Both the position numbers and the translations under genes were made by a program. 47,732 bases of DNA from Betaproteobacteria bacterium (GTDB taxonomy: Bacteria > Pseudomonadota > Gammaproteobacteria > Burkholderiales > SG8-41): assembly GCA_028292225.1 (NCBI GenBank), contig JAQGMV010000443.1, positions 1-47,732 on the forward strand, read 5' to 3'. The notes beneath the pieces are model-generated. The model was not told the DNA's origin. It did not search any database and saw only the letters and a program-made list of their open reading frames with translations. How positions within the stretch are numbered: position 1 is the first letter of the stretch; the number at the start of each line of letters is the position of its first letter. This document shows positions 12,421 to 42,475 of the stretch, piece after piece.

Positions 12421-14280
12421 TCAGGCTGCGTGATCGATTGTTCTCGCACTCGAATCGTCCCGTTTAGCGGCGCGCCCGGCAATTCCGAGGAGGGCCATTA
12501 AGTTGTTCTTGATCTCGCCGGCGTCATGGACGATATCGTTGTTCTTCATCAGCTCTTGCCGAAAGACAGCGAACTCCCTCTCGAGCCACGCAGGCTCGTC
12601 GAGCGCACGTTCGAGGCCGTCGAGATTTCCCACCAGACCCGCGTAGTCCGCGTCCCCATAGATGAATTTTTCGGAAGCGGTAACGCCGCCAAAGTTCAGC
12701 AGCAGATAGGGCTTCGCAGAAAACAGGAGGTCGAGTACGACTCCGGATGGAAATGTGATCGCGTGAGTAAAGCTGGCGAATAGCTCCGTCTTCGACAAGT
12801 CGCCCTCGGCGACGATGCGCATGTCGCTGAACTGCCGATAACATTCTCGCGAGTCCCTGGGATGCAGCTTTATCAGAACATCGAGGTGCTTGGCGACTGC
12901 GATTTCGCGCAACGCGGCGAGCACGCGACGATTCAGATGAACGTCGTAATTGGCGAAGAAACACCAGACCCGGGGGCGGTCGGCCACCGCTACAGCCGCG
13001 GTATTGTCGACCGAATCAACGCACGCTTTGAAGGAGCCGACGTACGCGACACGGGAAGCATCGGCGCCCCACACCTCGGCGAAACGCGCTTGGTTCGTCC
13101 TGCTGTCGGTCAGAAACCAGTCGCCGAACACCGGGAATGGCAATACATGCGCGAACTGGTCGCACTGCATGACATGGACGCATTTGAGGCCGAGCTTTCT
13201 CGCAGTGAGTGCGTCGGCCAGACCATGCGGGGATTTCTGCTCAAAGGTCAGCAGCACGCGCCACGCGGGCTGCGGCATCGCAGAGACCTCCGCTTCCAGC
13301 GCTTCGGCGTAGACAACGAGGTCCGGAAGCATCACGAGGAGCTCGCGGATCGACTGCGTGATGTCGACCGCCACGCCTACGACTTCCAGAGTTTCCTTTT
13401 TCTTCGTCAATATCAGCGACGCGGCCTTCAGGTAAACACCCACCAGCCGGCGCAGTGACGGGCGCCGCAGCCGGACGGCGTGTACCGTTCCAGGCGCTGC
13501 GGCGGCAACCTGCATGCAAGCTTTCCAGTTCGCGCCTCTCGTAAAAAAGCTCTCCGCCGCCACCATGCTCGCACGCAAACCGGTCGAGCGCAGAAAAGGC
13601 GATATCACTTCACTTTGAGCCGGAGAGCGCGAGACCACCACGACGTCGGTTTCACTTTGCACTGGTGCGCCTGGCCCACGCTGCACGCGCTGCGAAGCCG
13701 GACGCAGTCCGGCGAGCGCCGCGAAAAAACGCACTGCGAACACCAGCCACACTCTCGAGAGTTCGAACCAGAGCACCGGCGATAGGCCGGTCACCCCGGA
13801 AAAGCGGTGAGTCGCATTCTTCTGCCCGCACACTTCAACGAGGTAAGGCAGGAATACGGCCTCGCGTGAATACAGCCGCACGCCCTGCAGCTCGTATTCC
13901 GACATGTAGTACGCCGAGGTCCTCCGCTGCAGGAGAAGCTTGCGCGGGAACACCACCTCGAATGCGCCTCCGCGCTCGCGCATCACAGCGATCGCCGAGT
14001 TGAGCGCGGCGATGTACCGCGCGAGAGGCATCGTCGTGCACTCGTAGTATGCGTTGGCGAATCCGGGCAGCAGCGAAAGTAAGTCGTTCTTCCGGGATGA
14101 AAGTTTCGCTGCGACCGCTTCGGTGAGTCGGCGCTGCTCGGAGGTGGAGAGCTCTGGAAAGTGAAGCCCCCCCTCTTTGCAACTGCCGGCCAGATCGCCC
14201 ACGATCAGATCGCGATCGCAAGCGACGGGCCACACCGATTCCGCGTCAGCCGCAGAAAAAATGATAAAAATCCGATTCAT
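12421..14280 (-). CDS. Unassigned large protein, possible GT-B glycosyltransferase
   Basis: MNRIFIIFSAADAESVWPVACDRDLIVGDL...; conserved block SAYYMSEYELQGVRLYSREAVFLPYL; C-terminal VLIKLHPRDSRECY and ITFPSGVVLDLLFSAKPYLLLNFGG resemble HP and (S/T)S-type nucleotide-sugar motifs of GT-B families. No named family recognised. Confidence 0.6.
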   Translation of the reverse strand: MNRIFIIFSAADAESVWPVACDRDLIVGDLAGSCKEGGLHFPELSTSEQRRLTEAVAAKLSSRKNDLLSLLPGFANAYYECTTMPLARYIAALNSAIAVMRERGGAFEVVFPRKLLLQRRTSAYYMSEYELQGVRLYSREAVFLPYLVEVCGQKNATHRFSGVTGLSPVLWFELSRVWLVFAVRFFAALAGLRPASQRVQRGPGAPVQSETDVVVVSRSPAQSEVISPFLRSTGLRASMVAAESFFTRGANWKACMQVAAAAPGTVHAVRLRRPSLRRLVGVYLKAASLILTKKKETLEVVGVAVDITQSIRELLVMLPDLVVYAEALEAEVSAMPQPAWRVLLTFEQKSPHGLADALTARKLGLKCVHVMQCDQFAHVLPFPVFGDWFLTDSRTNQARFAEVWGADASRVAYVGSFKACVDSVDNTAAVAVADRPRVWCFFANYDVHLNRRVLAALREIAVAKHLDVLIKLHPRDSRECYRQFSDMRIVAEGDLSKTELFASFTHAITFPSGVVLDLLFSAKPYLLLNFGGVTASEKFIYGDADYAGLVGNLDGLERALDEPAWLEREFAVFRQELMKNNDIVHDAGEIKNNLMALLGIAGRAAKRDDSSARTIDHAA

Positions 14281-14315
14281 GTCGCGCGTGGGTTGCCAAA
14301 GACTGCAATAGTACC

Positions 14316-15320
14316 TCAGGACGCGATTCCTGATTCCGGTGCGGCAGCGTCGGGCCACGCCTCATGAAACCTGCTCTCGTTCGTCCTTCCATCGGCGAGA
14401 AACCAATCACCGAAAACCGGAATGGGCAGTGCGTGCGCGAACTGGTCGCACTGCATGACCTGCACGCAGCTCAAGCCCAGGCGCCGCGCGATCGCCGTTC
14501 GAGTCCCGGTCGAACGTAAGAACGGCGCGAAGAATTCGGTTTGCGATTGCGCGCGCGTCACCACGATCAGGTCGACGTCTTGCAGCGACCTTGCCCCGGC
14601 GGTGGCCGCGGACGCGGCGCGCGACCTCGGCCTCCACGCCGTCAGGGCGAACGCGAAACGCAGGGCGAACACCGACCACACGCGCAGCGGGCTGAACAAC
14701 ATCACCGGCGAGATCCGCCGACGTGCGCGAGACCGATACGACGCCCGTTCCTGGTCGCAGACATCCAGCAGATATGGAAGAAAAGTTGCCTCCCTGTCAT
14801 ACAACCTTACCGAGCTGACGTGAAGCTCATACTCCGACATGTAGTAAGCAGAGCTCCGGACCGCCAGGCTCAGTTGCCGCGGGAAAACAACTTCGAACGG
14901 CTCGCCGGAGCCTTTCAAGCAGCGGATCGCCGCGCGCAGGGCACACACGTAGCGCGCGACAGGCATCACGGTGCATTCGTAAAATACGTTTGCGAAGCCT
15001 TGCAGTCCGGACAGGAACCGGTCCTGTTCGCCCGACAGACGCTGTGCTATGACGGAGCATGCGGCCGACTGCGCCGCCAGATCGAGCTCGGGAAAAAAAT
15101 AGCGGCCGGTCGCCGGCGGCGAGGCGATGTCTCCGATCACCCAATCGTCCCCGCTTATGCCGCTTGCGGCGGTGGCAATCAGGTCGCGCTCGGAAAAGAC
15201 GACGTGTATACGGCGCACGGGCGTATCGCCGACCACTGCGTTCCCGCGCGCGGGGAAGAACGGATCAATCGGGGCTGCGTGGTGCCCCTGGACACCGGCC
15301 TCAGATAAAGCGCAAGGCAT
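14316..15320 (-). pseudogene. Truncated, internally deleted tandem paralogue of the 12421-14280 gene
   Basis: Shares GFANVFYECTVMPVARYVCALRAAIRCL, FEVVFPRQL, SAYYMSEYEL, VRLYDREATFLPYLLDVC, FLRSTGTR, ARRLGLSCVQVMQCDQFAHALPIPVFGDWFLADGRTN with the neighbour, but lacks ~124 central residues and the whole HPRD-containing C-terminus. Start uncertain (possibly GTG before RRIHVVFSERD). Confidence 0.6.
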
Positions 15321-16272
15321 GGGAGCGCACTTGTCGAAAATCGTCGGTCTGAGCTATCCACGAATCAGGCTCTCGCACCGCACGAAGCTTTTTCAGCACT
15401 CGCTTTACCTTCGGCGGCACGATCGCCCTGAGTCTGCCCATCGGTCGGCGCTGCTCCAGGGTCTCGTATTCGGCGTACATGGCGAAGGCGTGCTCCCACA
15501 GCCCCTTCATCTCGCCGGCATTTGCTGCGCCCGCGTTGTAGGCAAAAGCTTCGGTGAACTCTTGGATCCACCTGGAATAGCGCTCGGGAAAATTCGCCTG
15601 GAACCGCACGAGGTCCTGCGTTTCCGGACACGGCGCGAAGGTGACAAGAGCATCCCGCGCCATGTAGAGCACATCCTGGAACATGAAATGTCTGCCGTAC
15701 CACGCGTCGGCGAACGCGAAAGAGAGCTCGTTCAGATTAAAGCTCTCCACCTGCGACGGGAAGGCGCGAAGAATCGCCAGCATGCGGTCGTTGCGTCGCA
15801 GCGAGTACATCGAATGCATGTAACTGCGCATCCACGTCGAGAGCCGCTCCGCCGGCGTGGCCGCGTCGATCGAAAAACTCTTTGCATGATCGTAGAGCCG
15901 GCCGAAACGCAGGCTGCCCCGACGGTTCTCGATCGAGATATAGCGACCCTGCGCGGACGCGCAACCCGGATCTTCCATCAGGAGGCGCGCGGCCCGAACC
16001 AACCCTCCCGGGCAAAGGTAATCGTCGTCAGGGCACAGTGTCACAATAGGGGCGCGGATTTGCTCGGCTGCGGTTTTCAGCCGCTGCGTCATCGACATCC
16101 CCGGATAATGACGGTACCAGTGCCGCCAGCGCGTGGCGTCCGGAAAGGGCTGGGCGGTGCCGTCCGCCACGACGACGTCCTGGATCCCGATGTGCTTAAG
16201 CCAGTCGAGCTGTCTCGCGAGCGTCCCGTGCCGATTGTACGTGGGAACGATAATGCCAATGTTTTCGATCAT
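15301..16272 (-). CDS. Glycosyltransferase, GT2-like (TIGR00180-type)
   Basis: MIENIGIIVPTYNRHGTLARQLDWL, VVVADGT, IVTLCPDDDYLCPGGLVRAARLL, GRYISIENR. Confidence 0.8.
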   Translation of the reverse strand: MIENIGIIVPTYNRHGTLARQLDWLKHIGIQDVVVADGTAQPFPDATRWRHWYRHYPGMSMTQRLKTAAEQIRAPIVTLCPDDDYLCPGGLVRAARLLMEDPGCASAQGRYISIENRRGSLRFGRLYDHAKSFSIDAATPAERLSTWMRSYMHSMYSLRRNDRMLAILRAFPSQVESFNLNELSFAFADAWYGRHFMFQDVLYMARDALVTFAPCPETQDLVRFQANFPERYSRWIQEFTEAFAYNAGAANAGEMKGLWEHAFAMYAEYETLEQRRPMGRLRAIVPPKVKRVLKKLRAVREPDSWIAQTDDFRQVRSHALRFI

Positions 16273-17780
16273 CTTGGCAAACTTTTTGCGGCCCTGAACA
16301 TCCAGTGCCGTAGTGATTGTCGCATCGACGGAAGGGCCAGCACTGCCGCGCCTACCAGAGCCGGCCAGACCAGCGCGAGCCACGCCACCGCGCCAGCTCT
16401 TCCGAGTTCCGGAGGCTCCAGCGCTTTCAGCAACAGCGCTGCAAGTGTGATGAACATGAGCGGGCGCAGCACATCGTCACGAAGCCAGACCCATTTCTGG
16501 GCATTGAGGTACCGACGGTGCAAAAACGCCGTCTGTAGCGAAACGTATATGACGTTCATCAGTATCCATGCGATCGCGGTTCCGATCATGCCCCCCGCTT
16601 TGGCGCCGATTATAATTGCCGGGATCACCACCAGCATGGACATCGCATTGAGCGTCACCGCGAGACGCGTCCAGCCGTATGCCGTCGCAAGCGACGCGGG
16701 AACATACATGAGCCCATTGAGCGTGTAGCCGATTGCGAGCAGGGAGGTGACGGCTGCTATCTGGGCTGCAAGCGAGGGGCTGCCTGACCACACCATCACA
16801 ACGGCATGCGAGAACAGGATCAGCAACATGGCCGCCGGAAGAACAGCAGCGGCGAGTGCCTGGCACGCCTGATGGTAGGTTCTAACGAGCGCCCCCTCGT
16901 CGTCGCCGGCGATGTCCTGGACCAGCCGCGGATACGCTGCCGTGACTATGGGACGCGCGAATATTGCGATGCCACTTGCAAGTGTCGCCGCCATCATGTA
17001 CTGACCGAAAGTCTCGAGGCTCAGCAGTTTGGACAGGACGAGCTTGTCGGTCTGCGCCATCGCGACGCCGAGCGAGTTCCCGAGGAACATGCCCGCCGCG
17101 AACCTCCAGATCGATTTGAGGCGATCAAGCCGGAACACGGTGGCGTCGCGCCCCGCGGGAAGCAGCCGCCTGAAGCGCAGCATCAGGACGACCGATTCAA
17201 CCACGGCGGTGGCGAATTGCCACTGGAAAAAAGCCCCGAGGTTTCCCCCGTAAACCGCCAGAATCAGAACGGCGCCCAGCGCCCGCACCGTCGCCATTGC
17301 CGAGGTGAACGCGTTGAGCCAGACCTGTTGCTGAAGGCCCTGAATCGCCGCTACGTACAATTGTCCCCACCAACGGGCCAGCAGCGCGAGTGCGAGCAGA
17401 CGCACGCTGTCGATCAGCATCTCGCGCGTGAGCACCACCGGATTGAGCCAGCTCGCCGCGAGCGCCGGAAGCACGAGCCACGCCACCAGCGCGAGCGCAG
17501 CCGCTATCGCACAATAAACGACTTCGACCGGAAGCATCAGTTCGCGGATACCGCTCGCAGTGTATTGCCCGGCGCTGTAGCGTGCCATTTCGCGGTTGAC
17601 CGCGGCGCAGATTCCCAGGTCGAGCAGATAGATCCAGACCTGGAGCGAGGCGAAAAAGCCGATCAGACCAATGGCCTCCATTCCGAGGTAGCTCGCATAT
17701 ACCGGCACGAAACCGATATTCATGAGCGTCGTCCACCCCTGCCCCAGGAAGTTGGCGACCACGTTCAGCTTGGTAGACAT
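16269..17780 (-). CDS. wzx: Wzx-type flippase / polysaccharide biosynthesis MATE-like protein
   Basis: 503 aa, ~12 hydrophobic segments; NVVANFLGQGWTTLMNIGFVPVYASYLGMEAIGLIGFFASLQVW, QTDKLVLSKLLSLETFGQYMMAAT. Confidence 0.85.
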   Translation of the reverse strand: MSTKLNVVANFLGQGWTTLMNIGFVPVYASYLGMEAIGLIGFFASLQVWIYLLDLGICAAVNREMARYSAGQYTASGIRELMLPVEVVYCAIAAALALVAWLVLPALAASWLNPVVLTREMLIDSVRLLALALLARWWGQLYVAAIQGLQQQVWLNAFTSAMATVRALGAVLILAVYGGNLGAFFQWQFATAVVESVVLMLRFRRLLPAGRDATVFRLDRLKSIWRFAAGMFLGNSLGVAMAQTDKLVLSKLLSLETFGQYMMAATLASGIAIFARPIVTAAYPRLVQDIAGDDEGALVRTYHQACQALAAAVLPAAMLLILFSHAVVMVWSGSPSLAAQIAAVTSLLAIGYTLNGLMYVPASLATAYGWTRLAVTLNAMSMLVVIPAIIIGAKAGGMIGTAIAWILMNVIYVSLQTAFLHRRYLNAQKWVWLRDDVLRPLMFITLAALLLKALEPPELGRAGAVAWLALVWPALVGAAVLALPSMRQSLRHWMFRAAKSLPR

Positions 17781-17976: not shown

Positions 17977-20079
17977 TCAGGCGTCACTGACACTCTGCGA
18001 GAACCGCGACAGGTCCTCCTGATTCGGAAAAAACCATGGCCCGTAAGCCCGTACGTCGACGTCCGCGAGTGGGCCGAAGCGGCAGTTAGCGTATCGCGTA
18101 CGCCTTTTCTCGAGGTAATCCTCATGCGAGACTTCCGCGAAAGTCGCCAGATTCTCCTGCTTCGGAATCCAGTAGTCCCCGATCGCCAGATAGTCGATGT
18201 CCATGAACCCGAACGATTCGATCGCATCGAGCGGCGTATCGACAATCGCCTCGCCGTTCACGTTGAAGCTGGTGTTGATCACCATGGGCAATCCGGTCTG
18301 GCGCTCGAAGGCCTTGATGATCGCGTAAAAGTCGGCATTCTGTGCCGGCGTAACCGTCTGGACCCGCGCGGTGCCGTCGACGTGTACGACCGCAGGCACC
18401 ACTTTTGCGGTGCCTGGCTTCGCCCTCGCGATCAGCAGCATGAAAGGTGTATCGATCTCGACGTCGAAATACTCGTGCACGCGCTCGCGCAGGCACGCGG
18501 GAGCGAACGGCCGGAACTCTTCGCGATGCTTGACCCGGATGTTCAGTATGTCCTTCATTTCCGGAAACGCAGGATTGGCGAGGATAGAACGGTTGCCGAG
18601 CGCACGCGGCCCGAATTCGGCACCGCCGCGATAACGCGCAACGATCTTGCCTTGGGCGAGAGCGCCCGCAATTTCGTCGGCGATCGATTGCGGCTTTGAA
18701 TACTTCACTCCGGTCGCGCTGAGCGCCTGCTGAATTTCCTGCTCGACGCCCTCATAGCCGAAGTAGCAGCTGTAGATCCTGCCGCTGTCGGTCAACTTGC
18801 GCTGGAAGAGCTGGGCCTGCGCTGCGCCGACACTGGTGCCATCGTCTGCCGACGCGGGATATACAAAAACGTCATCGCAGACACCCGACTGGCGTATCGC
18901 TTCATTCATCAGGCCGTTGAGCCCGACTCCACCGGCGATCGCCAGCTTACGGCTTCCGGTGAGCGCGACGGCCTTTTCGGCGAGCCGCACGCCGAGCCGC
19001 TCGACTGCTTTCTGAGCCGACGCGGCGAGGTCGAAGTGCGCCTGAGAGAGCGGCGTCCCGGCAGCGCGGGGCGGCAGCAGCTCCGCGAACGCCTCTGAAA
19101 ACCGAAAACGGCGATGGCCCGAGTTACGCACGTCGCCTACGACGAAGTGCTCCGTCTCGAGCAGCCGCAGGCGGCCTTGGTCGTCGACCTCCATGCTTTT
19201 TTCCAGCAGTTCGTGGAAGCGCGGCTCGCCGTACGCCGACATGCCCATGACCTTGTACTCGTCACCGTGGTCGAAGCCGAGGTACCGTGTCACCGTAAGA
19301 TAGAACGAGCCGAGACTATGAGGCCAATACGACTGTGCAACAAGATCGAGAGCGTCTGGACGCGCACGATAGACGCTCGTCGTATCCGCCTCGCCCTGGC
19401 CGTCAATCACCAGGATCGCCGCTTCGGCGTAGCCGGAACCGAAATAAGCCGAGGCGGCGTGGCACACGTGATGATTCACGAACTGCACGCTTATGCCGGG
19501 GAACAGACCGGAGATGATGTCTCCGATTGTGCGGTACTTGATCCCGGAGTTCAGGTACCACGTGGCGCGGAATGCGATTTGCCGCGCTTCATCCTGCGAC
19601 ACGCCGGCATCGTGCATGGCGGATGCGAGAAAGCGTTGCGTGGCGTTGTCGTTTTCGAATGACAGCGGTACGGCCTCGGGAAAATAATCCAGCAGGGCCT
19701 TGAAAAGGCTGTCGGCCTTGTTGTCTGCGACGATGAGGCGGACCTCGTTCTGAAACGCCTTGGTCAGGTACTCAATGGGACTGAAGTTCACGGCGACCGA
19801 CGAAATTACGAATCCCAGCTTGCGTGCCGTGGTACAGCAGCGGTGGATCGCGCCGATCGGGAAGCGGCTTTCGTGCTTGACGTTCGAAAGGCGCTCTTCT
19901 GCGACGGCGTGAAGCACGGCGCCTGTGCGCGCACATACCAGCGCGGCCGAAGTGTCGTGAGTAAGCGCACCGATGCCAAGGATCGCCTGGGCCTTGCCTG
20001 CCGTCGCGGAGAATACGTCGGGGTACTGCTCGGTCAACGGAGTGATTTGTGCTTCAAACTTTTCGGGAAATATTTTCAT
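17977..20079 (-). CDS. Carbamoyltransferase (NodU/CmcH family)
   Basis: ILGIGALTHDTSAALV, AVAEERLSNVKHESRFP, VNHHVCHAASAYFGSGYAEAAILVIDGQGE, GGVGLNGLMNEAI, YRGGAEFGPRALGNRSILA, NTSFNVNGEAIVDTP. ATG at 20079 (MKIFPEKFEA). Confidence 0.93.
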   Translation of the reverse strand: MKIFPEKFEAQITPLTEQYPDVFSATAGKAQAILGIGALTHDTSAALVCARTGAVLHAVAEERLSNVKHESRFPIGAIHRCCTTARKLGFVISSVAVNFSPIEYLTKAFQNEVRLIVADNKADSLFKALLDYFPEAVPLSFENDNATQRFLASAMHDAGVSQDEARQIAFRATWYLNSGIKYRTIGDIISGLFPGISVQFVNHHVCHAASAYFGSGYAEAAILVIDGQGEADTTSVYRARPDALDLVAQSYWPHSLGSFYLTVTRYLGFDHGDEYKVMGMSAYGEPRFHELLEKSMEVDDQGRLRLLETEHFVVGDVRNSGHRRFRFSEAFAELLPPRAAGTPLSQAHFDLAASAQKAVERLGVRLAEKAVALTGSRKLAIAGGVGLNGLMNEAIRQSGVCDDVFVYPASADDGTSVGAAQAQLFQRKLTDSGRIYSCYFGYEGVEQEIQQALSATGVKYSKPQSIADEIAGALAQGKIVARYRGGAEFGPRALGNRSILANPAFPEMKDILNIRVKHREEFRPFAPACLRERVHEYFDVEIDTPFMLLIARAKPGTAKVVPAVVHVDGTARVQTVTPAQNADFYAIIKAFERQTGLPMVINTSFNVNGEAIVDTPLDAIESFGFMDIDYLAIGDYWIPKQENLATFAEVSHEDYLEKRRTRYANCRFGPLADVDVRAYGPWFFPNQEDLSRFSQSVSDA

Positions 20080-20202
20080 GGCGTTGGTCTGGTCATTGAC
20101 GGTGCGCGGCAGCCGCGAAATCGGCCCCACATCCGTAGCAATCGTTCAAGCATCGGGAACATGCCACACGACCGAGCACGACCCGGCCACGCGACACCAC
20201 GG

Positions 20203-20225
20203 GTGCGGGCGGCGAACGCCCGCAC
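20203..20225. terminator. Hairpin in the gap between CmcI-like and carbamoyltransferase genes
   Basis: GTGCGGGCG-GCGAA-CGCCCGCAC, perfect 9-bp stem just after the CmcI-like stop at 20237; no T tract on the minus strand. Confidence 0.35.
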
Positions 20226-20236
20226 GTTTGCTGCCG

Positions 20237-22430: not shown

Positions 22431-22542
22431 GCGCGCGCTGAGCCCGGCCGCAAGACCCGGATCGTCGCCGATACCGGCATTCCACCGTTGCGATACCGCT
22501 GAGGGAATTCAGCGCCTCTGTGCTGGCCGTGACTTGAATGCA

Positions 22543-28925: not shown

Positions 28926-28927
28926 GG

Positions 28928-31393: not shown

Positions 31394-32587
31394 TCAATCG
31401 ACCACGTACTTCATCACCCACTGGCCATGCTCTTTCGTCCAGACGTGTGACTTGTTTCTATAGAAATCCATCACGTCCCAGAACTCCTGCTCGGTGATAT
31501 CGAGGTACTCGAGCATCCACGTAAAATATTTCTTCGGAAACTCGTGGTCGTAACGGTGGACGAGCGCCACACCTTCCTGGCGCGTGATGTGGTGCCTGCG
31601 GATGTCCTGCTGCGCGTCGCGGGAGCATCGGCCGAGCCCGAACTTCATGTACGCGAGATAGAAGTGCAGGCCGTCCATCTTGTCGTCTAGGCTTGCGTAC
31701 TTGGTGTAGGTCGATTCCGTGCGGCCTTCGTCGTTCAGGGTCATGCCAGTGTGTTTCACCGCGTAGTAAAAATTCTCCTGCGGCGTCCACTTCTCGTAAT
31801 ACGAGAACCAGTGCATCTCGAGGCCCATCTTCTGGATCACGTCGGAGGAAGGGGGCATGTACCACTGCATGCTCGGGTTCTCGGCGTCGTCCTGAGTCAG
31901 CAGGCCGCGGTCGATTCCCGCGCGTACGAGCTCCTTGAGGCCGGCGCCCTTGAAGTATTCGTGGTTCCAGTCTTCCACGGTCTCCTTCGGAGCGTTCTTG
32001 TATTTGGTGCTCCCGCCGTACTCCAGCTCACCGTTCTCGCCGTAAAAGATGAGGCTGACGCCGAACTTCTGCGCGATGTGATACGCCCACGCCTTCTGGC
32101 CGTAGGTGAACGGTTCCCAGGCGTCGCCCTTGACCTCGAAGGCGATGCGCGAGAGCTTGCGGTGCAGCGCGCCGTCGGGCTGACCAAGGATGTTGAAGAA
32201 TCCCGCATTGGTGAACGCCTGGAGGTTCTTCCAGCCGATGGGCGTCCAGTCGAACGGCGCCCACGTCACGCACAAGGGGTGCATGCCGAAGCGGTGCTTG
32301 AGCTGGTGGGCGACGAACGCGCTGTCCTTGCCGCCGCTGCCCGGAACGATAACGTCGTACGACCCGTCGGTGCGCCTGAACTTGTCGCAGAGCTCGACGA
32401 GCTCGCGGTTGCGCTCCGACCAGTCGACGCCGTGATCTTTTTCGTAGGCCCACAGGCACGCAGAACAGATGCCGTTCTCGTCGAGCACGGTGCGCGGCCG
32501 CTGGTTGGACACCACGCAGTTCTTGCAGAACTCGACTTCCTTCGGCAATGCTTCGAACTGCCTGTCGAGGGTGAAGATTTCAGCCAT
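31394..32587 (-). CDS. N-acetyl sugar amidotransferase (PseA/PtmG/WbpG family)
   Basis: CKNCVVSNQRPRTVLDENGICSACLWAYEK, DVIVPGSGGKDSAFVAHQLKHRFGMHPLCVTWAPFDWTPIGWKNLQAF, LIFYGENGELEYGG, FGLGRCSRDAQQDIR. Confidence 0.9.
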   Translation of the reverse strand: MAEIFTLDRQFEALPKEVEFCKNCVVSNQRPRTVLDENGICSACLWAYEKDHGVDWSERNRELVELCDKFRRTDGSYDVIVPGSGGKDSAFVAHQLKHRFGMHPLCVTWAPFDWTPIGWKNLQAFTNAGFFNILGQPDGALHRKLSRIAFEVKGDAWEPFTYGQKAWAYHIAQKFGVSLIFYGENGELEYGGSTKYKNAPKETVEDWNHEYFKGAGLKELVRAGIDRGLLTQDDAENPSMQWYMPPSSDVIQKMGLEMHWFSYYEKWTPQENFYYAVKHTGMTLNDEGRTESTYTKYASLDDKMDGLHFYLAYMKFGLGRCSRDAQQDIRRHHITRQEGVALVHRYDHEFPKKYFTWMLEYLDITEQEFWDVMDFYRNKSHVWTKEHGQWVMKYVVD

Positions 32588-32591
32588 GCGC

Positions 32592-33236
32592 CTACAGCTC
32601 CAGAAAGTTTTTCAACAGGTGCAGGCCGTGCGCGCCGCTGCGCTCCGGATGGAACTGGGCCCCGTGGACGTTGCCCTGCCCCACGACCGAGCTGTAGCGC
32701 TGGCCGCCGTATTCGGTATAGGCGACCGTGGCCGCTGGCGAAACTGTCTTCACGTAATACGAATGAACGAAATACATGTTCGCGCCGACCGGCACGTCGC
32801 GAAGCACCGACTCCGCCCACGGGCGCTCCGCGCGCTCGTTCTCGACCAGCGCGTTCCACGAAATCTGCGGAACCTTGCAGACCCGCTCCCCGGCCTGCTC
32901 CGACTCGAAGCGCACGACGCGCCCGGCGATGAAATCGAAGCCGCCGTGCACGCCGTCTTCTTCCGATTCGGTCATGAGGAACTGCATTCCCAGGCAGATT
33001 CCGAGTAGCGGCCTGCCGGAGGCGGCGAACTCGCGAATCGCGGGCTCAAAGGACTTTTCGCGCAGGACCTTCATGCCCGGACCGAAAGCGCCCACGCCGG
33101 GAAGGACGAGCCGCTCCGCGCGCTGCGCCTCCGCCGGGTCGCTCGTCACCACGGCGTCAGCGCCCACGACGCGCAGCGCAGTTTCCAGGTTGAACAGATT
33201 GCCCAGGCCGTAATCGATGATCGTGACGCGCTTCAT
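32592..33236 (-). CDS. hisH: HisH-type glutamine amidotransferase subunit (surface-sugar paralogue)
   Basis: MKRVTIIDYGLGNLFNLETALRVVGA, LPGVGAFGPGM, LLGICLGMQFLMTESEE, AQFHPERSGAHGLHLLKNF. ORF-track start over-extended; ATG at 33236. Confidence 0.92.
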   Translation of the reverse strand: MKRVTIIDYGLGNLFNLETALRVVGADAVVTSDPAEAQRAERLVLPGVGAFGPGMKVLREKSFEPAIREFAASGRPLLGICLGMQFLMTESEEDGVHGGFDFIAGRVVRFESEQAGERVCKVPQISWNALVENERAERPWAESVLRDVPVGANMYFVHSYYVKTVSPAATVAYTEYGGQRYSSVVGQGNVHGAQFHPERSGAHGLHLLKNFLEL

Positions 33237-34135
33237 CAGTGCACATCCCTCACGCGAACCCCGGCTGTGCTCATCTTGTTCTTTGCGTTCCCGATCGAGG
33301 ACGGCTCCACCATGATCGCTCTTTCCCCGCCGTAGCCGTGGTTCAGAAAATCTATGTTGCCGGCGTCGATCTGCTCGCCCATGCGGAGCCGGCCGCCCAC
33401 TTCCTGCATGGTTTTGCGCAGCGGCTTCGGTCGCGCATAGCAATAATGGAACAACGAGGCCGCACTGACAGCATCGGCACCGGCCGCGACCGCTTTCGCA
33501 AGGTCGTCGACGCATCCCGCGCCGCCGCACGCGATGAGCGGCACGGTCACCCGCGATGCGACGGCAGCGATCAGATCGAGGTCGTAGCCCGAGCCCATCC
33601 CTTCGTAGTTGATCGAGGTGAGCAGTATCTCCCCAACGCCGAGATCGACGACGCGCTGCGCCCACTCGATCGCGTCGACGGCAGTCGGCTCGCGGCCGTA
33701 ATCGACCCAGCAGCGGTACTTCCCATCAGAGCCGCGAAACGCCTCGATCGCGCTAACGATGCACTGCGAGCCGAACTCCCGCGCGCCGAGGCTCAGCAGC
33801 TCGGGTGATTCAATCGCCGCAGTGTTGATCGCAACCTTGTCGGCGCCCGAACGCAGGAGCGTCCGGATGTCCTCCACGCTGCGGATGCCGCCCGCGACGG
33901 TGATCGGTATGAACACTTTCTCCGCGACGCGTTTCACGACGTCCACCAGGCCGTTGCGCCGGTAGAGGCTCGCGACGGCATCCTGGTAGATCAGCTCGTC
34001 GGCGCCTTCGGCGTAGTAGATCTCCGCGAATTCCTCCGCGAGGCCGAGCACCCGGTGCCCGTCGAACTGGATTCCCTTGATGAGATTGGGCCCCTTGATG
34101 TCCAGGCGGGGTATGACTCTTACGAGGTTGATCAT
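33236..34135 (-). CDS. hisF: HisF-type cyclase subunit (surface-sugar paralogue)
   Basis: VRVIPRLDIKGPNLIKGIQFDGHRVLG, YYAEGADELIYQDAVASLY, ITVAGGIRSVEDIRTLLRSGADKVAINTAAI, GVGEILLTSINYEGMGSGYD, LIACGGAG. Confidence 0.92.
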   Translation of the reverse strand: MINLVRVIPRLDIKGPNLIKGIQFDGHRVLGLAEEFAEIYYAEGADELIYQDAVASLYRRNGLVDVVKRVAEKVFIPITVAGGIRSVEDIRTLLRSGADKVAINTAAIESPELLSLGAREFGSQCIVSAIEAFRGSDGKYRCWVDYGREPTAVDAIEWAQRVVDLGVGEILLTSINYEGMGSGYDLDLIAAVASRVTVPLIACGGAGCVDDLAKAVAAGADAVSAASLFHYCYARPKPLRKTMQEVGGRLRMGEQIDAGNIDFLNHGYGGERAIMVEPSSIGNAKNKMSTAGVRVRDVH

Positions 34136-34155
34136 GATGCCTTTCTCTTCTGACC

Positions 34156-34743
34156 TCAGGCTGCGCCGACGCGCTGCTCGCCGGCTTTTTCGCCCGCATC
34201 GGCGCCGAGGCGGCGCACAATGCGTGCAGGGCTTCCGGCTGCGACCACGCATGCCGGCACGCTGCGGGTGACCACGCTGCCCGCCCCCACGACCGAGTTC
34301 TCGCCGATAGTCACGCCGGCGAGGATGACGGCATTGGCGCCGATCCACGCGCCTTTGCGCACGAGCACGGGCGCCGAAGGTGAGTCGCCCTGGTCGATGA
34401 TAGGCACGCGCGGGTCTTCGAAACGATGGTCGTTGACGTACATGTGCACACCCGCACCGAGCAGCACGTCATCTTCGATCGTGATCCCCTCGAAAGTGTC
34501 GGCAAAAAGCATGGTCCCGGGGCGAATGACCACACGGCGGCCCAGGCTGATCTTCGAGCAGTAGACCGCATACGCGCCGGGCCTGAACTCTGCGCCTTCA
34601 CCGAAGTGGCAGAATTTACGTTCACACAGCGCCTGCATCGTCGAGCGAAAGTGCAGGCGCCAGTGAGTGTAGGGAATGTCGGGGCCGATGCGATCGGCCG
34701 CGCGCCAGAAACGGATGCGCTCTGCAAGCTCGGCGATCTTCAA
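34156..34743 (-). CDS. Left-handed beta-helix acyl/acetyltransferase
   Basis: Hexapeptide-like repeats: VVIRPGTMLFADTFEGITIEDDVLLGAGVHMYVNDH, WIGANAVILAGVTIGENSVVGAGSVVTRSVPACVVAAGSPARIV. Confidence 0.88.
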   Translation of the reverse strand: MKIAELAERIRFWRAADRIGPDIPYTHWRLHFRSTMQALCERKFCHFGEGAEFRPGAYAVYCSKISLGRRVVIRPGTMLFADTFEGITIEDDVLLGAGVHMYVNDHRFEDPRVPIIDQGDSPSAPVLVRKGAWIGANAVILAGVTIGENSVVGAGSVVTRSVPACVVAAGSPARIVRRLGADAGEKAGEQRVGAA

Positions 34744-35456
34744 CGGCGTTCTTCCGCTGCTGCGGCGTCGCGCGCCATGAGGAACTCCACGAAGCTAAAG
34801 TCGAGCTCCGAATCGATGTCGATCGAACGTTCCTCGGGCATCACGTAGAGCCGTGTACCGACATCGAAGAGGGCGTCGCGCGCGAGCAGCACCTCGCGTC
34901 GCCAAACGTAGATGGAAGCATTCATGTCGTAGCATTTGGGCGCATCCTGGCGGCGGGTGATCGCGGCAGCCAGCGGTTTGGACAGGCCGACGGTCCCGTC
35001 TTCGGCCACTTCGACGAGGTTGAAGTAAGGTGAGCGCCGAGCGGGCATCGCGGTAATGACATTCCCCGCATCGCCGTCCTCGAGCAGAGCGACCGCCGCC
35101 GCGATGTCGGAAGACGTGCGCAGCGGCGAAGTCGCGTCGAGGTCGACGATCGTTCCGAACTGAGCTCCGCGCCGCCGCTCGACGTCGAGCACGCAGTGGC
35201 GAATCGCCGGCAGCTTGGCCGCCACATCGCTCGCAAGCTCGGGCGGGCGCTCGACCATCTCGTCTGCGCCCCATTCTCGCGCCGCCTCCAGTATTTCTTC
35301 GGAGTCGCTGCTCACCGCGATCAGGTCAAACAGCCCAGAGCCGCGCGCCTGCGCGATGCTGTGCGCAATCAGCGGCCTGCCGGCGAGCATTCGGATGTTC
35401 TTGCCCTTGACGCCTTTCGAGCCGCCTCGCGCGCATATCGTGCACAGCCGTTTCAT
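34740..35456 (-). CDS. legF: Acylneuraminate cytidylyltransferase-type CMP-nonulosonate synthase (PtmB/LegF-like)
   Basis: MKRLCTICARGGSKGVKGKNIRMLAGRPLIAHSI, IVDLDATSPLRTSSDI. ORF-track start over-extended; ATG at 35456. Confidence 0.9.
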   Translation of the reverse strand: MKRLCTICARGGSKGVKGKNIRMLAGRPLIAHSIAQARGSGLFDLIAVSSDSEEILEAAREWGADEMVERPPELASDVAAKLPAIRHCVLDVERRRGAQFGTIVDLDATSPLRTSSDIAAAVALLEDGDAGNVITAMPARRSPYFNLVEVAEDGTVGLSKPLAAAITRRQDAPKCYDMNASIYVWRREVLLARDALFDVGTRLYVMPEERSIDIDSELDFSFVEFLMARDAAAAEERR

Positions 35457-36364
35457 GCTTCCACCCACTCGCGTCGCTCGCTGGCGCGCTCCGCTGCGGC
35501 GATGAGGCCCAGCGTGCCGGCCGCGTGTCCGATGTCGCACAGCGCGGCGCTGTCGCCTTCGAGCGCGGCGCGGTGCATGGCGCAGTAGGTGTGATCGCGA
35601 TCGGCGCCGAGCGCCTCCCGGCGCCCGTCGACGATCACCGCGCCGCCGACAATATCGGCCTCGATCGTATGCCCGGCGGTGTTCACAATCGCGAAGCGTT
35701 TCGTTGTGCGATCCAGGTAGTTGATCTGGAGCTGCACGATCGGGCACGCGCGAGTCTCGAACATGAGGGCGTAGACGTCGTCGCTGTCGATTTCAAGCGG
35801 GCTCAGGTGCCCGCCCCGAGCCGTCACCCGGATCCAGGCGCCGAATAGCCACGTCAGGTAGTCGAGCTCATGGCTCAGGTCCCTCAGCACCCCGCCCCCA
35901 CGCGCCGCGCTCGCGGAGTATGAGGCGCGGTAATCGGCCGAGGGCCTCCAGGCCGGAAGGTACTGTCCGGCGTACGCCTGCACCGAAATTGCCGGCGCAT
36001 CTTTTACGAGCCCGGCAAGCCGCTGCACAACCGGATGAAAGCGCAGGTTGTATCCGACGAAGGCGGCTCGAAAGGTGTTCGCAGGCAGCTCCCGCGGGCC
36101 GTCGAAGAGCGGCTTTTCTACGAGCACGACGCCGCTATAACCCAGGCGCGCCAGCCGCGACAGCGCGTCGTAGTGCCGATCGGTTGAGTTCGCGATGACG
36201 ACGTAGTCAGGATGCGCTTCCGACAGCGCGTCTTCGAGCGTCCGATGAGCCCGCGCATGATCGACCGCGCGCGAGCTGACCACCGACGTGAGGCACCCGA
36301 GTTCACCCAGAAGCCGCGCATGGCGCGCGCCGATGGAACCGAAGCCCACGACGAGCGCTTTCAC
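35453..36364 (-). CDS. Gfo/Idh/MocA oxidoreductase, PtmF-like by position
   Basis: MKALVVGFGSIGARHARLLGELG, YVVIANSTDRHYDALSRLARLGYSGVVLVEKPLFDG, GGGVLRDLSHELDYLTWLFG. Confidence 0.82.
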   Translation of the reverse strand: MKALVVGFGSIGARHARLLGELGCLTSVVSSRAVDHARAHRTLEDALSEAHPDYVVIANSTDRHYDALSRLARLGYSGVVLVEKPLFDGPRELPANTFRAAFVGYNLRFHPVVQRLAGLVKDAPAISVQAYAGQYLPAWRPSADYRASYSASAARGGGVLRDLSHELDYLTWLFGAWIRVTARGGHLSPLEIDSDDVYALMFETRACPIVQLQINYLDRTTKRFAIVNTAGHTIEADIVGGAVIVDGRREALGADRDHTYCAMHRAALEGDSAALCDIGHAAGTLGLIAAAERASERREWVEA

Positions 36365-37413: not shown

Positions 37414-38052
37414 TTATACTCCGACTTCGCGGGCGGGAACGCCCGCAACGCCCACGCCGTCGAGGACGTCGCGAACCACCACGGCGCCCGCAGCGATGAG
37501 GCAATGGCGGCCGATACGCACGCCCTGAATCACCGTCGCGCCCGTGCCCACGTGAGAGCCCTCTCCCACGCTGACATTACCCGACAGCGTAACTCCCGGC
37601 GCCACGTGTACGTGATCGCCGATCTCACAGTCGTGGTCGATCGACGCGCGCGTATTGAGGATCGAGTTGCGGCCTACGCGGCATCCGGTCTGCACGATGG
37701 CGCCTGCCATGATCTGCGCACCTTCGCACAAGACCGCATCGGCTGCGATGGTCGCCGACGGGTGTATCACTTCCGCAAAACGGTAACCGTGCTGCTTGAA
37801 TCGCTCGAACACGCCGGAACGCTGCGGGCTCACGCCGACGGTGCCGACGGCGTTTACCAGCCGCACACCGTGCGCAGGATGGTTCTGCACTTCTTCGTCC
37901 CCTCCGGTAACCGGCACGCCGCCGACTGTTTGGCCGCGCTTCGCGCAATCGTTGTCGACGACGCCCAGCACCTCGACGCCGCGCAGGCGCAGAACGTCGA
38001 GCAACACCCGCGCGTGTCCGCCCGCCCCTATGACGATCACCGGCTCGCTCAC
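37414..38052 (-). CDS. neuD: NeuD-family acetyltransferase (candidate nonulosonate N-acetyltransferase)
   Basis: PVIVIGAGGHARVLLDVLRLRGVEVLGVVDND, VIHPSATIAADAVLCEGAQIMAGAIVQTGCRVGRNSILNTRASIDHDCEIGDHVHVAPGVTLSGNV. GTG start at 38052. Confidence 0.85.
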   Translation of the reverse strand: MSEPVIVIGAGGHARVLLDVLRLRGVEVLGVVDNDCAKRGQTVGGVPVTGGDEEVQNHPAHGVRLVNAVGTVGVSPQRSGVFERFKQHGYRFAEVIHPSATIAADAVLCEGAQIMAGAIVQTGCRVGRNSILNTRASIDHDCEIGDHVHVAPGVTLSGNVSVGEGSHVGTGATVIQGVRIGRHCLIAAGAVVVRDVLDGVGVAGVPAREVGV

Positions 38053-39125
38053 GGCTCCACCTTCTCGTCGCGGCGGTAATCTCGCTGCGCCACCCGCCCC
38101 AGCCAGTCCCAGTATTCGACCGGGCTCACCCCGTCTCCGGGCCGTTTCACGGTGAGGTTCTCCGCGGTAAACACATCTCCCTTGCGGATGTCGGCGGCGG
38201 CGACCAGACTTTTTCGCGCGACCGGGATGTTCGCGAGTTCGCACGCTGCCGGAGCCTTCACCGCGGAACCCAGCGCGAGCTCGACTTGGCGCACCGCTTC
38301 GACCATCAGCGACAGCGCATCCAGGTCCAGCGACGCCTTGTGATCGGGGCCCGGCAGGCTGCGATCGAGGGTGAAATGCTTCTCCAGGACCGACGCGCCG
38401 AGGGCGATGGCTGCGATCGGAACCGCGATCCCGGGGCTGTGGTCGGAATACCCGGTAGAAAGCCCGAAGGCGTTGCGCAGGGTCGCCATGGAATTCAGGT
38501 TGATATCCGCGTAGGCGGCAGGGTATTCGGTCGTGCAATGCAGCAGCGTGACCTTGTCGCGCAACGCGTCCCGGCCCGCCGCCGAGGCGTAGGCGAGCGC
38601 GCAGTCGGCTTTCGACGGGGTGCGATCGGGCTCGGTATAGCCGAACGCGAGCACCGCCAGTGCCGTCTCCACTTCTCCGAGCACGCTCATGCCGGTCGAC
38701 AGGATGACGGGCAGCCCGGTGCGTGCGGCGCGAAGCAGCAGGGGGGCGTTTGTGAGGTCGCCCGACGAGAACTTCAGGCGCTCGACACCGAGCTCGTGCA
38801 CCAGGAAATCGAGGCTGACCGGGTCGAACGGTGTCGACAGGAAGTCGATCCCGCACACCTTGCAGCGCTCGACCAGCGCCGCGTGGTCGGCGTGCGCGAG
38901 CTCGAGCTTGCGGATCATCGCGTGCTGAGATTCGTCCTCATTGGTCGTCGCGATCTGATAGGCCGCTTTCGGCGCCGAACGGCTCACCAGCGTGTCCGCG
39001 GTAAACGTCTGGAACTTTACCGCGTCGGCCCCGGCGGCGGCGGCCGCATCAACCAGCTGCAGTGCGAGCTCAAGCGAACCGTTGTGGTTCACTCCCGCCT
39101 CGGCGATTACATATACGCGACTCAT
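38049..39125 (-). CDS. legI: N-acetylneuraminate/legionaminate synthase (NeuB/LegI family, C-terminal SAF)
   Basis: VYVIAEAGVNHNGSLELALQLVDAAAAAGADAVKFQTF, STPFDPVSLDFL, KFSSGDLTNAPLL, LHCTTEYPA, GYSDHSPGIAVPIAAIALGASVLEKHFTLD, ARKSLVAAADIRKGDVFTAENLTVKRPG. Confidence 0.94.
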   Translation of the reverse strand: MSRVYVIAEAGVNHNGSLELALQLVDAAAAAGADAVKFQTFTADTLVSRSAPKAAYQIATTNEDESQHAMIRKLELAHADHAALVERCKVCGIDFLSTPFDPVSLDFLVHELGVERLKFSSGDLTNAPLLLRAARTGLPVILSTGMSVLGEVETALAVLAFGYTEPDRTPSKADCALAYASAAGRDALRDKVTLLHCTTEYPAAYADINLNSMATLRNAFGLSTGYSDHSPGIAVPIAAIALGASVLEKHFTLDRSLPGPDHKASLDLDALSLMVEAVRQVELALGSAVKAPAACELANIPVARKSLVAAADIRKGDVFTAENLTVKRPGDGVSPVEYWDWLGRVAQRDYRRDEKVEP

Positions 39126-40285
39126 GCCAGGGCCAGGTCGTGGAAGTGCTTCTTCACGAGCTGCGATGGCTCGTCGATCTGCTTCAGAAACGCCGCAATG
39201 CGCTCGGACGAATGCCCGTCGCCGTAAGGATTGGCAACGCCCGAGCAATCCATCGACAAGGCGCGCCGTATCGCCTGCTCGATCGCGTCGGCCTGAGGCG
39301 CGCAACTCACTACCGAAGTGGCACGGACGCGGCCCTTTTGCCGATCGCCGATGTCGACCGTCGGTTTGCCGAAAGACGGCGCCTCATACAGGCCACTCGA
39401 CGAGTTTCCGACGACAGCGTCAACCATCGACATCGCGCTGAGGTAGCGCAGCTGGCCCAGCGAGGAGTACGCGCGCGCGTTCGGGGAAGCTGCTACGAAC
39501 TCCGCAATGAGTCGTGCTATGCCGTGCCCGCCGGTATCGGAATTGGGGTGTGTGAAGATGATTCCCATCTCCGGTCCGAGCGCCGAGAGCGCTCCAAGCA
39601 GCTCGCGGAACTGGTTTTCGGCTGGCTCTTCATCAAGTGTGGCCGGATGGAACGTCACGAGCAAGTTTTTGGGCCGGAACTCGAACCCGATCGCCGCCTC
39701 GAGAGCACGGCGCTCGAGCAGCTGCACGCGCTTGATGTAATCGATGCCGGGACTGCCGACGTTGACCACATAGCGCGGGTCTTCACCGAGTTGCCGCACC
39801 CGGCGCGCAGCCGATTCGTTGGTGACGAAATGGATATGCGCCATTTTCGTGATGCTGTGACGGATCGCCTCGTCGAACGCGCCTTCGGTCGAGTCTCCGC
39901 CGGCGATGTGCGCGATCGGAATCCTCGCCACCATCGCCGCCTGCGCCGCGGCGAGGATCTCGAAGCGGTCGCCGAGCACGACCAGGATCTCGGGTCGCAG
40001 GCGGTCGAAGACGCCGGCGAAGCCGATGACGCCGAGGCCCATCGATTTCGTCACCGCCGAAGGCGTGTCGCCGGCTAGGAGCATCTCGACGCGCTCGGCG
40101 ATGCTGAAGCCATCCGATTCGATCGCGCGGTAAGTCAGGCCGAACTCCGGCGCGAGGTGCATGCCGGTCGCTACGAGCTGCAAGTCCCAATCTGGGTCCG
40201 ACTGCAAAGCCTTCAGCAGCCAGTACAGCAGGCCGTAATCGGCGCGGCTGCCGGTGACTACGCAAATGTGGCGCGAACGGCTCAT
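39122..40285 (-). CDS. legG: UDP-N-acetylglucosamine 2-epimerase (hydrolysing; NeuC/LegG-like)
   Basis: ICVVTGSRADYGLLYWLLKALQSDPDWDLQLVATGMHLAPEFGLTYRAIESDGF, LGDRFEILAAAQAAMVARIPIAHIAGGDSTEGAFDEAIRHSITKMAHIHFVTNE. Confidence 0.94.
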   Translation of the reverse strand: MSRSRHICVVTGSRADYGLLYWLLKALQSDPDWDLQLVATGMHLAPEFGLTYRAIESDGFSIAERVEMLLAGDTPSAVTKSMGLGVIGFAGVFDRLRPEILVVLGDRFEILAAAQAAMVARIPIAHIAGGDSTEGAFDEAIRHSITKMAHIHFVTNESAARRVRQLGEDPRYVVNVGSPGIDYIKRVQLLERRALEAAIGFEFRPKNLLVTFHPATLDEEPAENQFRELLGALSALGPEMGIIFTHPNSDTGGHGIARLIAEFVAASPNARAYSSLGQLRYLSAMSMVDAVVGNSSSGLYEAPSFGKPTVDIGDRQKGRVRATSVVSCAPQADAIEQAIRRALSMDCSGVANPYGDGHSSERIAAFLKQIDEPSQLVKKHFHDLALA

Positions 40286-40286
40286 G

Positions 40287-41471
40287 TCAGTCGGCGAGAA
40301 AAGGACTGCTCGGAAGGTTTACGATTCGGGCGTCGAGCGCCTCGGCCTGCGCGAGGTCCATTCGGGGGCAGTCGGCGTAGACCGGGAGCCGGTGCATCAG
40401 GGTCCATACCGGCCGCGCCATAATCCCCAGCCCGTTGAGCGTTTCGAGGAGCCGGTCGCGCACGGCGACGTCGGGGCGGTCGAGGAGCAGCGCGTTCAGC
40501 CAGTAGTTGCTGCGGCAGTGCGCCGGCTCGCGCATGATAGATACGCCCGAGACGTCCTCGAACGCATCGAAATAGCGTTGCGCGAGCGCGCGTTTGGACT
40601 CGAGAAAACCGGGTAGTTGCTCGACCTGCGCGCATCCGAGCGCGGCGTTCAGGTTGGGCAGCCGGTAGTTGTATCCGACCTGGTCGTGCATGAAGGACCA
40701 GCGGTGCGCGGTGCGCGCGGTCGTGGTGATGTGTTTCGCGAGCTTCGCGAGCGCGGGGTCGTTGGTGAGTATCGCCCCGCCGCCGCCCGTCGTAATCACT
40801 TTATTGCCATTGAAGCTCAACGCGGCGACGGTGCCGAAATTTCCGGTATGGCGTCCGCGGTAGTAAGAGCCGAGCGATTCCGCGGCGTCTTCGACGAGCT
40901 GGATTTGCCAGCGCGCGCAGAGCGCGGTGATGGCGTCGAGATCCACCGGGTGGCCGAACGTGTGCATGGGAACCAGCGCGCGTATCACGGCCCCGGTGCG
41001 CAGATTGCGGCACACGCCGTCGCGCACCGCCGCTGTTTCGCGCAGGTAATGATCGAGCTTCGAGGCGTCGACCCCGAGCGTCGCGGTATCGCTGTCGACC
41101 AGGTGCGGCCTGGCGCCGGTATAGCTGACAGCGTTCGCCGTGGCGATGAAGGTAAGGGCCGGGATCAGCACTTCGTCGCCGTGCTCGACGCCCGTGAGAA
41201 GCAGGCAAGCGTGCAGCGCCGCGGTCCCGTTGACCGTCGCGACGGCGTAACCGGCGCCCGTGAACCCCTTCAGCATCTCCTCGAAGCGATCGACGTATTT
41301 CCCCGCCGACGAGACCCACTTGGTGTCGATGCACTCCTTCACGTACTGCCATTCGTTGCCACCGAAGCTCGGCTCGTGCAGCGCGACCGGCGAGCGCAGG
41401 TCGGGCAGCACGCGTTTGACCGCGTCGACGATTACGTCATGCGTAGAGCTGCGCCCGGCGGGGGTCGTCAT
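40287..41471 (-). CDS. legC: LegC-family aminotransferase (DegT/DnrJ/EryC1)
   Basis: LHEPSFGGNEWQYVKECIDTKWVSSAGKYVDRFEEML, VATVNGTAALHACLLLTGVEHGDEVLIPALTF, DAAESLGSYYRGRHTGNFGTVAALSFNGNKVITTGGGGAIL. Confidence 0.93.
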   Translation of the reverse strand: MTTPAGRSSTHDVIVDAVKRVLPDLRSPVALHEPSFGGNEWQYVKECIDTKWVSSAGKYVDRFEEMLKGFTGAGYAVATVNGTAALHACLLLTGVEHGDEVLIPALTFIATANAVSYTGARPHLVDSDTATLGVDASKLDHYLRETAAVRDGVCRNLRTGAVIRALVPMHTFGHPVDLDAITALCARWQIQLVEDAAESLGSYYRGRHTGNFGTVAALSFNGNKVITTGGGGAILTNDPALAKLAKHITTTARTAHRWSFMHDQVGYNYRLPNLNAALGCAQVEQLPGFLESKRALAQRYFDAFEDVSGVSIMREPAHCRSNYWLNALLLDRPDVAVRDRLLETLNGLGIMARPVWTLMHRLPVYADCPRMDLAQAEALDARIVNLPSSPFLAD

Positions 41472-42475
41472 ACGTTGTACCTGTCATGCTTGTACGCTTC
41501 GAGATTGCGCGCGTCGCCGAACCAGGCGATCGTCTCCGCGAGCCCGCGGCGAAACCCTTCGAGCCCCCCGTACGCGGGCTCCCACCCGGTAAGTCGCTTC
41601 GCCTTGGTCGTGTCGGCCCACAAGCGCTCGACTTCGCTTTTCTCCGGCCGCAGACGGACTTCGTCGGTGTGCACCTCGACCTTCGCCCCCATCAACCCGG
41701 CGATCGTATCGACGGTATCGCCCATCGAGATCTCGAAGCTACTGCCCACATTGACGACCTCGCCGACGGTGCTCGCGGCTTCGGCGACGGCGACAAAGCC
41801 GCGCACGGTGTCGCTGACGAAGGAAAAATCCCGGGTGGGGTGCAGCGCGCCGAGCTTTAACGACCGGCTGCCGTTGGCGATCTGGGTGATGACGGTCGGG
41901 ATGATCGCGCGGGCCGACTGCCTCGGCCCGTAGGTGTTGAACGGCCGGATCACGGCCACGGGTGTGCCAAACGAGGCGTGAAACGACATCGCGATCTGGT
42001 CTGCGCCGATCTTGCTGGCCGAATACGGGGACTGTCCCTGCAGCGGATGGTCCTCGGTGATCGGGACCGACCTAGCGGTGCCGTAGACCTCGCTCGTCGA
42101 GGTGTGGACGACTTTCTGCACGCCGAGCTCACGTGCGGCCTGCACCACGTTGAGTGTACCTTTGACGTTGGTGTCCACGTAAGTGTCAGGTGAGTGGTAC
42201 GAATACGGAATCGCGATCAGCGCCGCGAGGTGCAGCACCCAGTCGCACCCTTCCACTGCCTTGCGCACCCCATGCGGGTCCCTGATGTCGCCCGCGAAAA
42301 TCTCGAGCTCGGCGCACACGTCCGGCGGGCAGCGGTCCAGCCATCCCCAGCTGTTGAACGAGTTGTACAGCACGAAGGCCCGCACCCGATGCCCCTGCCT
42401 TACGAGATGCTCGGTCAGGTGCGAGCCGATGAAACCGTCGGCGCCGGTAACGAGTATTTTGCGAGCTGTGGCCAT
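41468..42475 (-). CDS. legB: NAD-dependent 4,6-dehydratase LegB-like
   Basis: ILVTGADGFIGSHLTEHLVRQGHRVRAFVLYNSFNSWGWLDRCP, HLAALIAIPYSYHSPDTYVDTNVKGTLNVVQAARELGVQKVVHTSTSEVYGTA. Confidence 0.94.
   Translation of the reverse strand: MATARKILVTGADGFIGSHLTEHLVRQGHRVRAFVLYNSFNSWGWLDRCPPDVCAELEIFAGDIRDPHGVRKAVEGCDWVLHLAALIAIPYSYHSPDTYVDTNVKGTLNVVQAARELGVQKVVHTSTSEVYGTARSVPITEDHPLQGQSPYSASKIGADQIAMSFHASFGTPVAVIRPFNTYGPRQSARAIIPTVITQIANGSRSLKLGALHPTRDFSFVSDTVRGFVAVAEAASTVGEVVNVGSSFEISMGDTVDTIAGLMGAKVEVHTDEVRLRPEKSEVERLWADTTKAKRLTGWEPAYGGLEGFRRGLAETIAWFGDARNLEAYKHDRYNV

Follow-up and report, generated by a model that had tools for sequence, protein, structure and literature searches.

An orphan protein as candidate CMP-nonulosonate transferase in a bacterial Wzx/Wzy polysaccharide cluster

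Introduction

In pathways of the legionaminic type the synthesis genes are easily recognised; the transferase which attaches the sugar often is not. This question is raised by a polysaccharide locus of a Betaproteobacteria bacterium (assembly GCA_028292225.1, contig JAQGMV010000443.1), which was analysed over its full 47,732 nucleotides, hereafter the window. Two adjacent open reading frames in its glycosyltransferase region, here called X and X', share distinctive sequence blocks. The original prediction took them for a tandem pair of proteins from a new family. On balance, we favour the view that X is the CMP-nonulosonate GT-B transferase of this Wzx/Wzy cluster, with a CMP donor bound by a KxHP motif, and that X' is a remnant, probably non-catalytic.

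The gene cluster

Read from right to left, the cluster starts with polysaccharide export and Wzz-like genes, followed by LegB, LegC, NeuC/LegG and NeuB/LegI for nonulosonate synthesis of the legionaminate type (38049..42475, minus strand). Then come a NeuD-like protein, a CBS-nucleotidyltransferase, an oxidoreductase, a CMP-sugar synthetase and an acetyltransferase. The synthetase (34740..35459, minus strand) is of the CTP_transf_3 type, scores below the PseF cut-off and is the proposed supplier of the donor. HisF/HisH-like proteins with WbuX, an SDR, an MBOAT/AlgX-like O-acetylation pair and a Wzy-like membrane protein follow, then a CDP-glucose route, an RmlC-like epimerase, CmcI-like and other methyltransferases and a NodU-like carbamoyltransferase. 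The next genes encode the Wzx flippase (16269..17780, minus strand), a TIGR04440 GT2-type glycosyltransferase (15301..16383, minus strand), X', X, a methyltransferase and AsnB. A large heparinase-like protein, a GT4, WecB, an epimerase and a WecA-like initiator complete the cluster. The labels Wzz-like, Wzy-like, HisH, SDR, oxidoreductase and heparinase-like come from reading the sequence only.

Since the window encodes NeuB, NeuC, LegB and LegC plus a CMP-sugar synthetase, a CMP-nonulosonate is expected to be made here. Besides X, the only transferases in the window are the GT4, the WecA-like initiator and the TIGR04440 GT2, the other local glycosyltransferase candidate. To our knowledge, none of these recognised transferases is in a class known for CMP-nonulosonate use (GT2, GT4). 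The window has no recognisable CMP-legionaminate transferase other than X. Whether such proteins occur with leg/neu genes was asked in the original prediction. In this window X does; as the searches gave no second X locus, this does not extend to a general rule.

Further sugar modifications are encoded nearby. The genes for the WbuX amidotransferase and for HisH-like and HisF/WbuZ-like proteins (31394..34138, minus strand), i.e., for acetamidino modification, are embedded in the nonulosonate pathway, a position pointing to an acetamidino-legionaminate as product. At 22.5-24.4 kb a CDP-sugar route consists of a glucose-1-phosphate cytidylyltransferase and a CDP-glucose 4,6-dehydratase (TIGR02623 and TIGR02622, both above cut-off). 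It stands together with the NodU-like carbamoyltransferase, the CmcI methyltransferase and the RmlC-like epimerase at 17977-24365, and these genes likely make a carbamoylated, methylated CDP-derived deoxy sugar. At 27915-30508 the MBOAT acyltransferase adjoins an AlgX-like SGNH protein, and the pair probably serves O-acetylation of a polysaccharide.

X and its decayed paralog

X is an intact protein of 619 aa encoded on the minus strand (12421..14280), with an ATG at 14280 as best start. The frame is open over its full length, packed between its neighbours and of a base composition like that of the adjoining genes; GC by codon position is 0.65, 0.45 and 0.72, i.e., of coding type. Residues 1-168 form an N-terminal domain (13777..14280, minus strand) which carries the GFANxxYECTxMP and SAYYMSEYEL blocks, is kept in X' and resembles nothing in anything searched. 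Residues 169-195 (13696..13776, minus strand) are predicted to be a hydrophobic/basic amphipathic helix, likely membrane-peripheral, ahead of the first Rossmann strand. For residues 212-600 (12481..13647, minus strand) profile similarity and motif spacing, rather than a structure model, suggest a GT-B-like region. The predicted arrangement of an N-terminal module before a GT-B-like half thus appears to apply to X, with a putative CMP-sugar motif in the C-terminal half.

X' is encoded next to it on the same strand (14316..15320), with homology to X from near 15218. The blocks described in the original prediction are present in both frames, and the paralogy is evident: BLASTP aligns about 240 N-terminal residues with 45% identity (E = 1e-58) and a second block of 45 residues with 76% identity (E = 3e-22). 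Conservation between the two is strongest around residues 372-396 of X, the QCDQFAHxLPxPVFGDWFLxDxRTN block (13093..13167, minus strand). A codon comparison gives dN 0.49, dS 1.70 and dN/dS of about 0.29, which points to purifying selection on the X/X' protein over a long time, with the caveat that dS is close to saturation. Because the divergence carries a protein-level signature, X and X' are genuine coding sequences and not chance frames in GC-rich DNA.

A pair of equals they are not. The paralogs do lie side by side, but X' is truncated by an internal deletion and a C-terminal loss, so that the tandem pair of proteins in the original prediction is not supported as stated. The residue matching X 239 is followed directly by that matching X 360; about 120 residues (~240-359 of X) are missing by an in-frame deletion with its junction near 14489. 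Everything past residue ~404 of X is gone as well, and X' ends within about 30 residues of the VFGDWFL block. Its GT-B half is reduced to a fragment in which E347, K471-P474 (the KxHP motif) and S512 are absent because they are located in the deleted or lost parts. The best reading of X' is that of a decayed former duplicate of X without the putative nucleotide-binding half, consisting of the N-domain plus a fragment. Catalysis by X' is unlikely; X' may retain a function of the N-domain only. For both loci the source is a single draft genome, and the gaps in X' may be an assembly error.

A putative cytidine-nucleotide site

The motif (K/R)xHP occurs in sialyltransferases and in retaining Kdo transferases alike, where the His touches the phosphate of CMP and the Pro packs against the cytosine (PMC12887879). 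A role of HP in binding of CMP-Neu5Ac has been described (PMC2169525). In the C-terminal half of X, K471-L-H-P474 (12859..12870, minus strand) fits this motif of CMP-sugar glycosyltransferases and is a putative cytidine-nucleotide binding site. The motif alone is weak evidence, since it appears in 5% of X shuffles. Its surroundings agree with it. E347 in TFEQK (13240..13242, minus strand) is at -126 and S512 (12745..12747, minus strand) at +39 of H473; in the TIGR04326-like protein L065 the corresponding spacings are -127 and +39. S512 is a candidate phosphate-binding Ser. E347 is a candidate conserved acidic residue and, by position, a candidate acid/base.

Bacterial sialyltransferases of GT38, GT52 and GT80 share the HP motif with X (K471-P474); their D/E-D/E-G motif does not occur in X. 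QxxxD is absent from the C-terminal half as well: the only instance, Q208-D212, lies outside the C-domain, and Q372-C-D374 is spaced differently. With both motifs missing, the sequence of X does not tell an inverting from a retaining mechanism. A reading of QCD as a QxxxD nucleophile and of YE as the general base of GT140-like enzymes was discarded, as spacing and location do not fit.

Comparison with known families

Residues 205-619 of X were compared profile against profile with family models and with 60 shuffles. The z scores were 6.1 for KpsC/KpsS (PF05159), 4.6 for TIGR04326-like proteins, 4.2 for polysialyltransferases (PF07388), 1.9 for CDP-glycerol transferases (PF04464), 0.9 for UDP-epimerases (NeuC/WecB) and 0.2 for GT4, the last two with very shallow profiles of two and one sequence. 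Much of this signal is generic to GT-B, since other GT-B proteins score too: NeuC reaches 36.8 against the TIGR04326-like profile (X 28.5) and WecB 43.9 against PF05159 (X 31.2). The similarities, weak as they are, favour CMP-sugar GT-B families over CDP-glycerol transferases for X.

PF05159 (Capsule_synth) gives the top score, with KxHP and the Ser aligned. X does not match it at the Pfam gathering score, and the similarity is a weak profile-profile one (P=0.0026, one comparison). Its members KpsC and KpsS use CMP-ulosonate donors; they differ from X in their QxxxD nucleophile motif, and X has an extra N-domain. KpsC is GT107; the founder of GT118 is KpsS1, a Pse transferase related to KpsS. 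Polysialyltransferases (PF07388, GT38) share the HP motif with X over a likeness of about 40 residues only, and X lacks their D/E-D/E-G motif. CDP-glycerol glycerophosphotransferases (PF04464) also have a GT-B-like C-domain and a cytidine donor, yet their score with X is inside the shuffle range.

The architecture of X is closest to that of TIGR04326 (O_ant_LIC13510) and its sub-threshold relatives. These proteins of about 560-640 aa resemble X in length, in surface-polysaccharide context and in module order: an N-domain, an amphipathic/basic helix, a Rossmann-type strand and a KxHP GT-B-like half. In most of them (K/R)xH(P) follows E[N/H/Q] at a distance of about 127-149 residues and precedes a Ser by 35-48 residues; X has the comparable motif, downstream Ser and upstream acidic residue. 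Differences exist. An H that is conserved behind the strand, in some proteins as QH, corresponds to QC in X, and Ser-Ser/Thr to Pro-Ser-Gly. X does not reach the curated cut-off of TIGR04326 (250 bits) and gives no match at E<=10. The N-domains score 16.4 against each other (shuffle mean 15.2, sd 2.5); an early alignment with P=0.034 did not survive a better profile and shuffles. What we propose is a shared architecture, and homology of the N-domains is not claimed. A MAFFT alignment of the C-terminal half with three TIGR04326 proteins put the TFEQK region in the wrong place and was set aside.

A search of the genome (G000) with TIGR04326 finds a single protein, on contig C74, and not X. This second, distant TIGR04326-like protein (L086:9099-10769) belongs to another polysaccharide locus with a LegC-like aminotransferase, a NeuD-like acetyltransferase, a GT2, a GT4 and a Bac_transf initiator; its gene lies close to the end of the contig. 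TIGR04326 and distant relatives lie near CMP-sugar synthetases in L083, L085, L087, L088, L089, L091 and L115. In the fetched flanks a CTP_transf_3-type synthetase was present at 7 of 9 TIGR04326-like loci (four of the sequences had gone into the HMM and three turned up independently of it), and CMP-sugar synthetases at 2 of 6 CDP-glycerol transferase and 3 of 8 PF05159 loci; all these numbers are small. In L085 (1046-8426) an aminotransferase, two MocA-type oxidoreductases, a CMP-sugar synthetase, a SIS protein and a 3-dehydroquinate-synthase-like protein precede the TIGR04326-like gene, possibly an unusual CMP-sugar pathway.

X as a sequence orphan

The original prediction could not name a family. 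A strong full-length match to a characterised one was sought in Pfam, NCBIfam and solved structures, and none emerged. In Pfam the sole hint is PF07388 at the HP motif (E = 0.048), NCBIfam has no model at E<=10, and no relative exists among solved structures. Within its own genome X' is the sole relative found. None was detected in overlapping samples of 100 genomes of relatives and 369 class, 399 phylum and 400 order genomes, nor in plasmids or viral contigs (the latter searched twice). A scan of 85,462 species genomes for YYMSEYE and [HQ]VMQCDQ yielded no confirmed relative. As these searches used sampled genomes or exact short motifs, distant relatives may have been missed. Weak tblastn/HMM matches (L008-L036, L095-L107) were spurious in those inspected: L012 is a dehydratase, L014/L016 is a GT4 tail and others are stop-bearing or antisense-looking frames. 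With too few relatives AlphaFold2 gave low confidence (pLDDT 31.1 for X with X', 38.6 for residues 335-619 alone), and Foldseek matches of the model to metallo-beta-lactamases (E>=0.048, TM 0.2) merely reflect its poor quality. The claim of a new family is unproven: close relatives are not detectable, and the only members found are X and its broken copy, too few to show a family of many members.

Discussion

The case for X as a CMP-nonulosonate GT-B transferase is weak but coherent. It draws on the motif with its spacing, on the genes around X and on a weak resemblance to the profiles of CMP-sugar GT-B families; the decay of X' is likewise an observation. What we infer beyond these observations, i.e., fold, donor, acceptor, stereochemistry and the role of the N-domain, would amount to the following. 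X would be a cytoplasmic, probably membrane-peripheral GT-B glycosyltransferase. The donor, CMP-legionaminate or an acetamidino-nonulosonate related to it, would be supplied by the genes at 31-42 kb and held at its CMP part by K471-x-H473-P474 and S512. At the inner membrane X would move the nonulosonate from CMP to the growing lipid-linked repeat unit, which Wzx would then flip. The N-domain would most likely shape the acceptor site or a partner contact.

The main rival concerns the donor. X could use the CDP-activated 6-deoxy sugar of the 22.5-24.4 kb route, with the nonulosonate transferred by the GT2 or an unrecognised protein. The window does encode that route, a cytidine-binding KxHP could suit CDP donors, and besides GT2 and GT4 X is the only unassigned transferase candidate in the cluster. 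We nevertheless regard this as unlikely: the KxHP families closest to X use CMP-ulosonates (PMC2169525, PMC12887879), and the best-known CDP-dependent relative tested, PF04464, is low (z=1.9). The same comparison bears on a role as polymer-modifying transferase, e.g., a CDP-glycerol-like phosphotransferase instead of a sugar transferase. CDP-glycerol transferases share a GT-B frame, and KxHP or RxHP is found in several of them, yet they score lowest of the cytidine families tested and X has no match to Glyphos_transf, Stealth or another phosphotransferase, so that such a role is very unlikely.

Another question is whether X belongs as an ordinary member to a glycosyltransferase family that already exists and is made to look orphan by a weak single-sequence query. 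The query was indeed only X and its broken copy, the genomes were sampled or scanned for exact motifs, and the module order fits TIGR04326. Yet no NCBIfam model appears at E = 10, N-domain scores equal those of shuffles, and the motifs shared by X and X' recur in no confirmed relative among the 85,462 species genomes; we find this reading rather doubtful. That X and X' are both decaying, non-functional genes is hardly credible. X' has clearly decayed and the loci come from one draft genome, but X is full-length, packed between its neighbours, of coding-type GC and low in dN/dS against X'.

The reading of X as the CMP-nonulosonate transferase leaves room for a bolder one. As such a transferase X is highly divergent, and it possibly founds a family. 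That it founds a new GT family, a CMP-legionaminate transferase without QxxxD and D/E-D/E-G whose N-domain of unknown fold takes part in catalysis or acceptor recognition, we advance as a tentative proposal.

If X is the transferase of this pathway, a sequence-orphan family would be added to the CMP-ulosonate transferases, and H473, P474, E347 and S512 would be the residues to mutate. Comparison with X also suggests a donor class, CMP-sugars, for TIGR04326: these uncharacterised proteins may transfer CMP-activated ulosonic acids.
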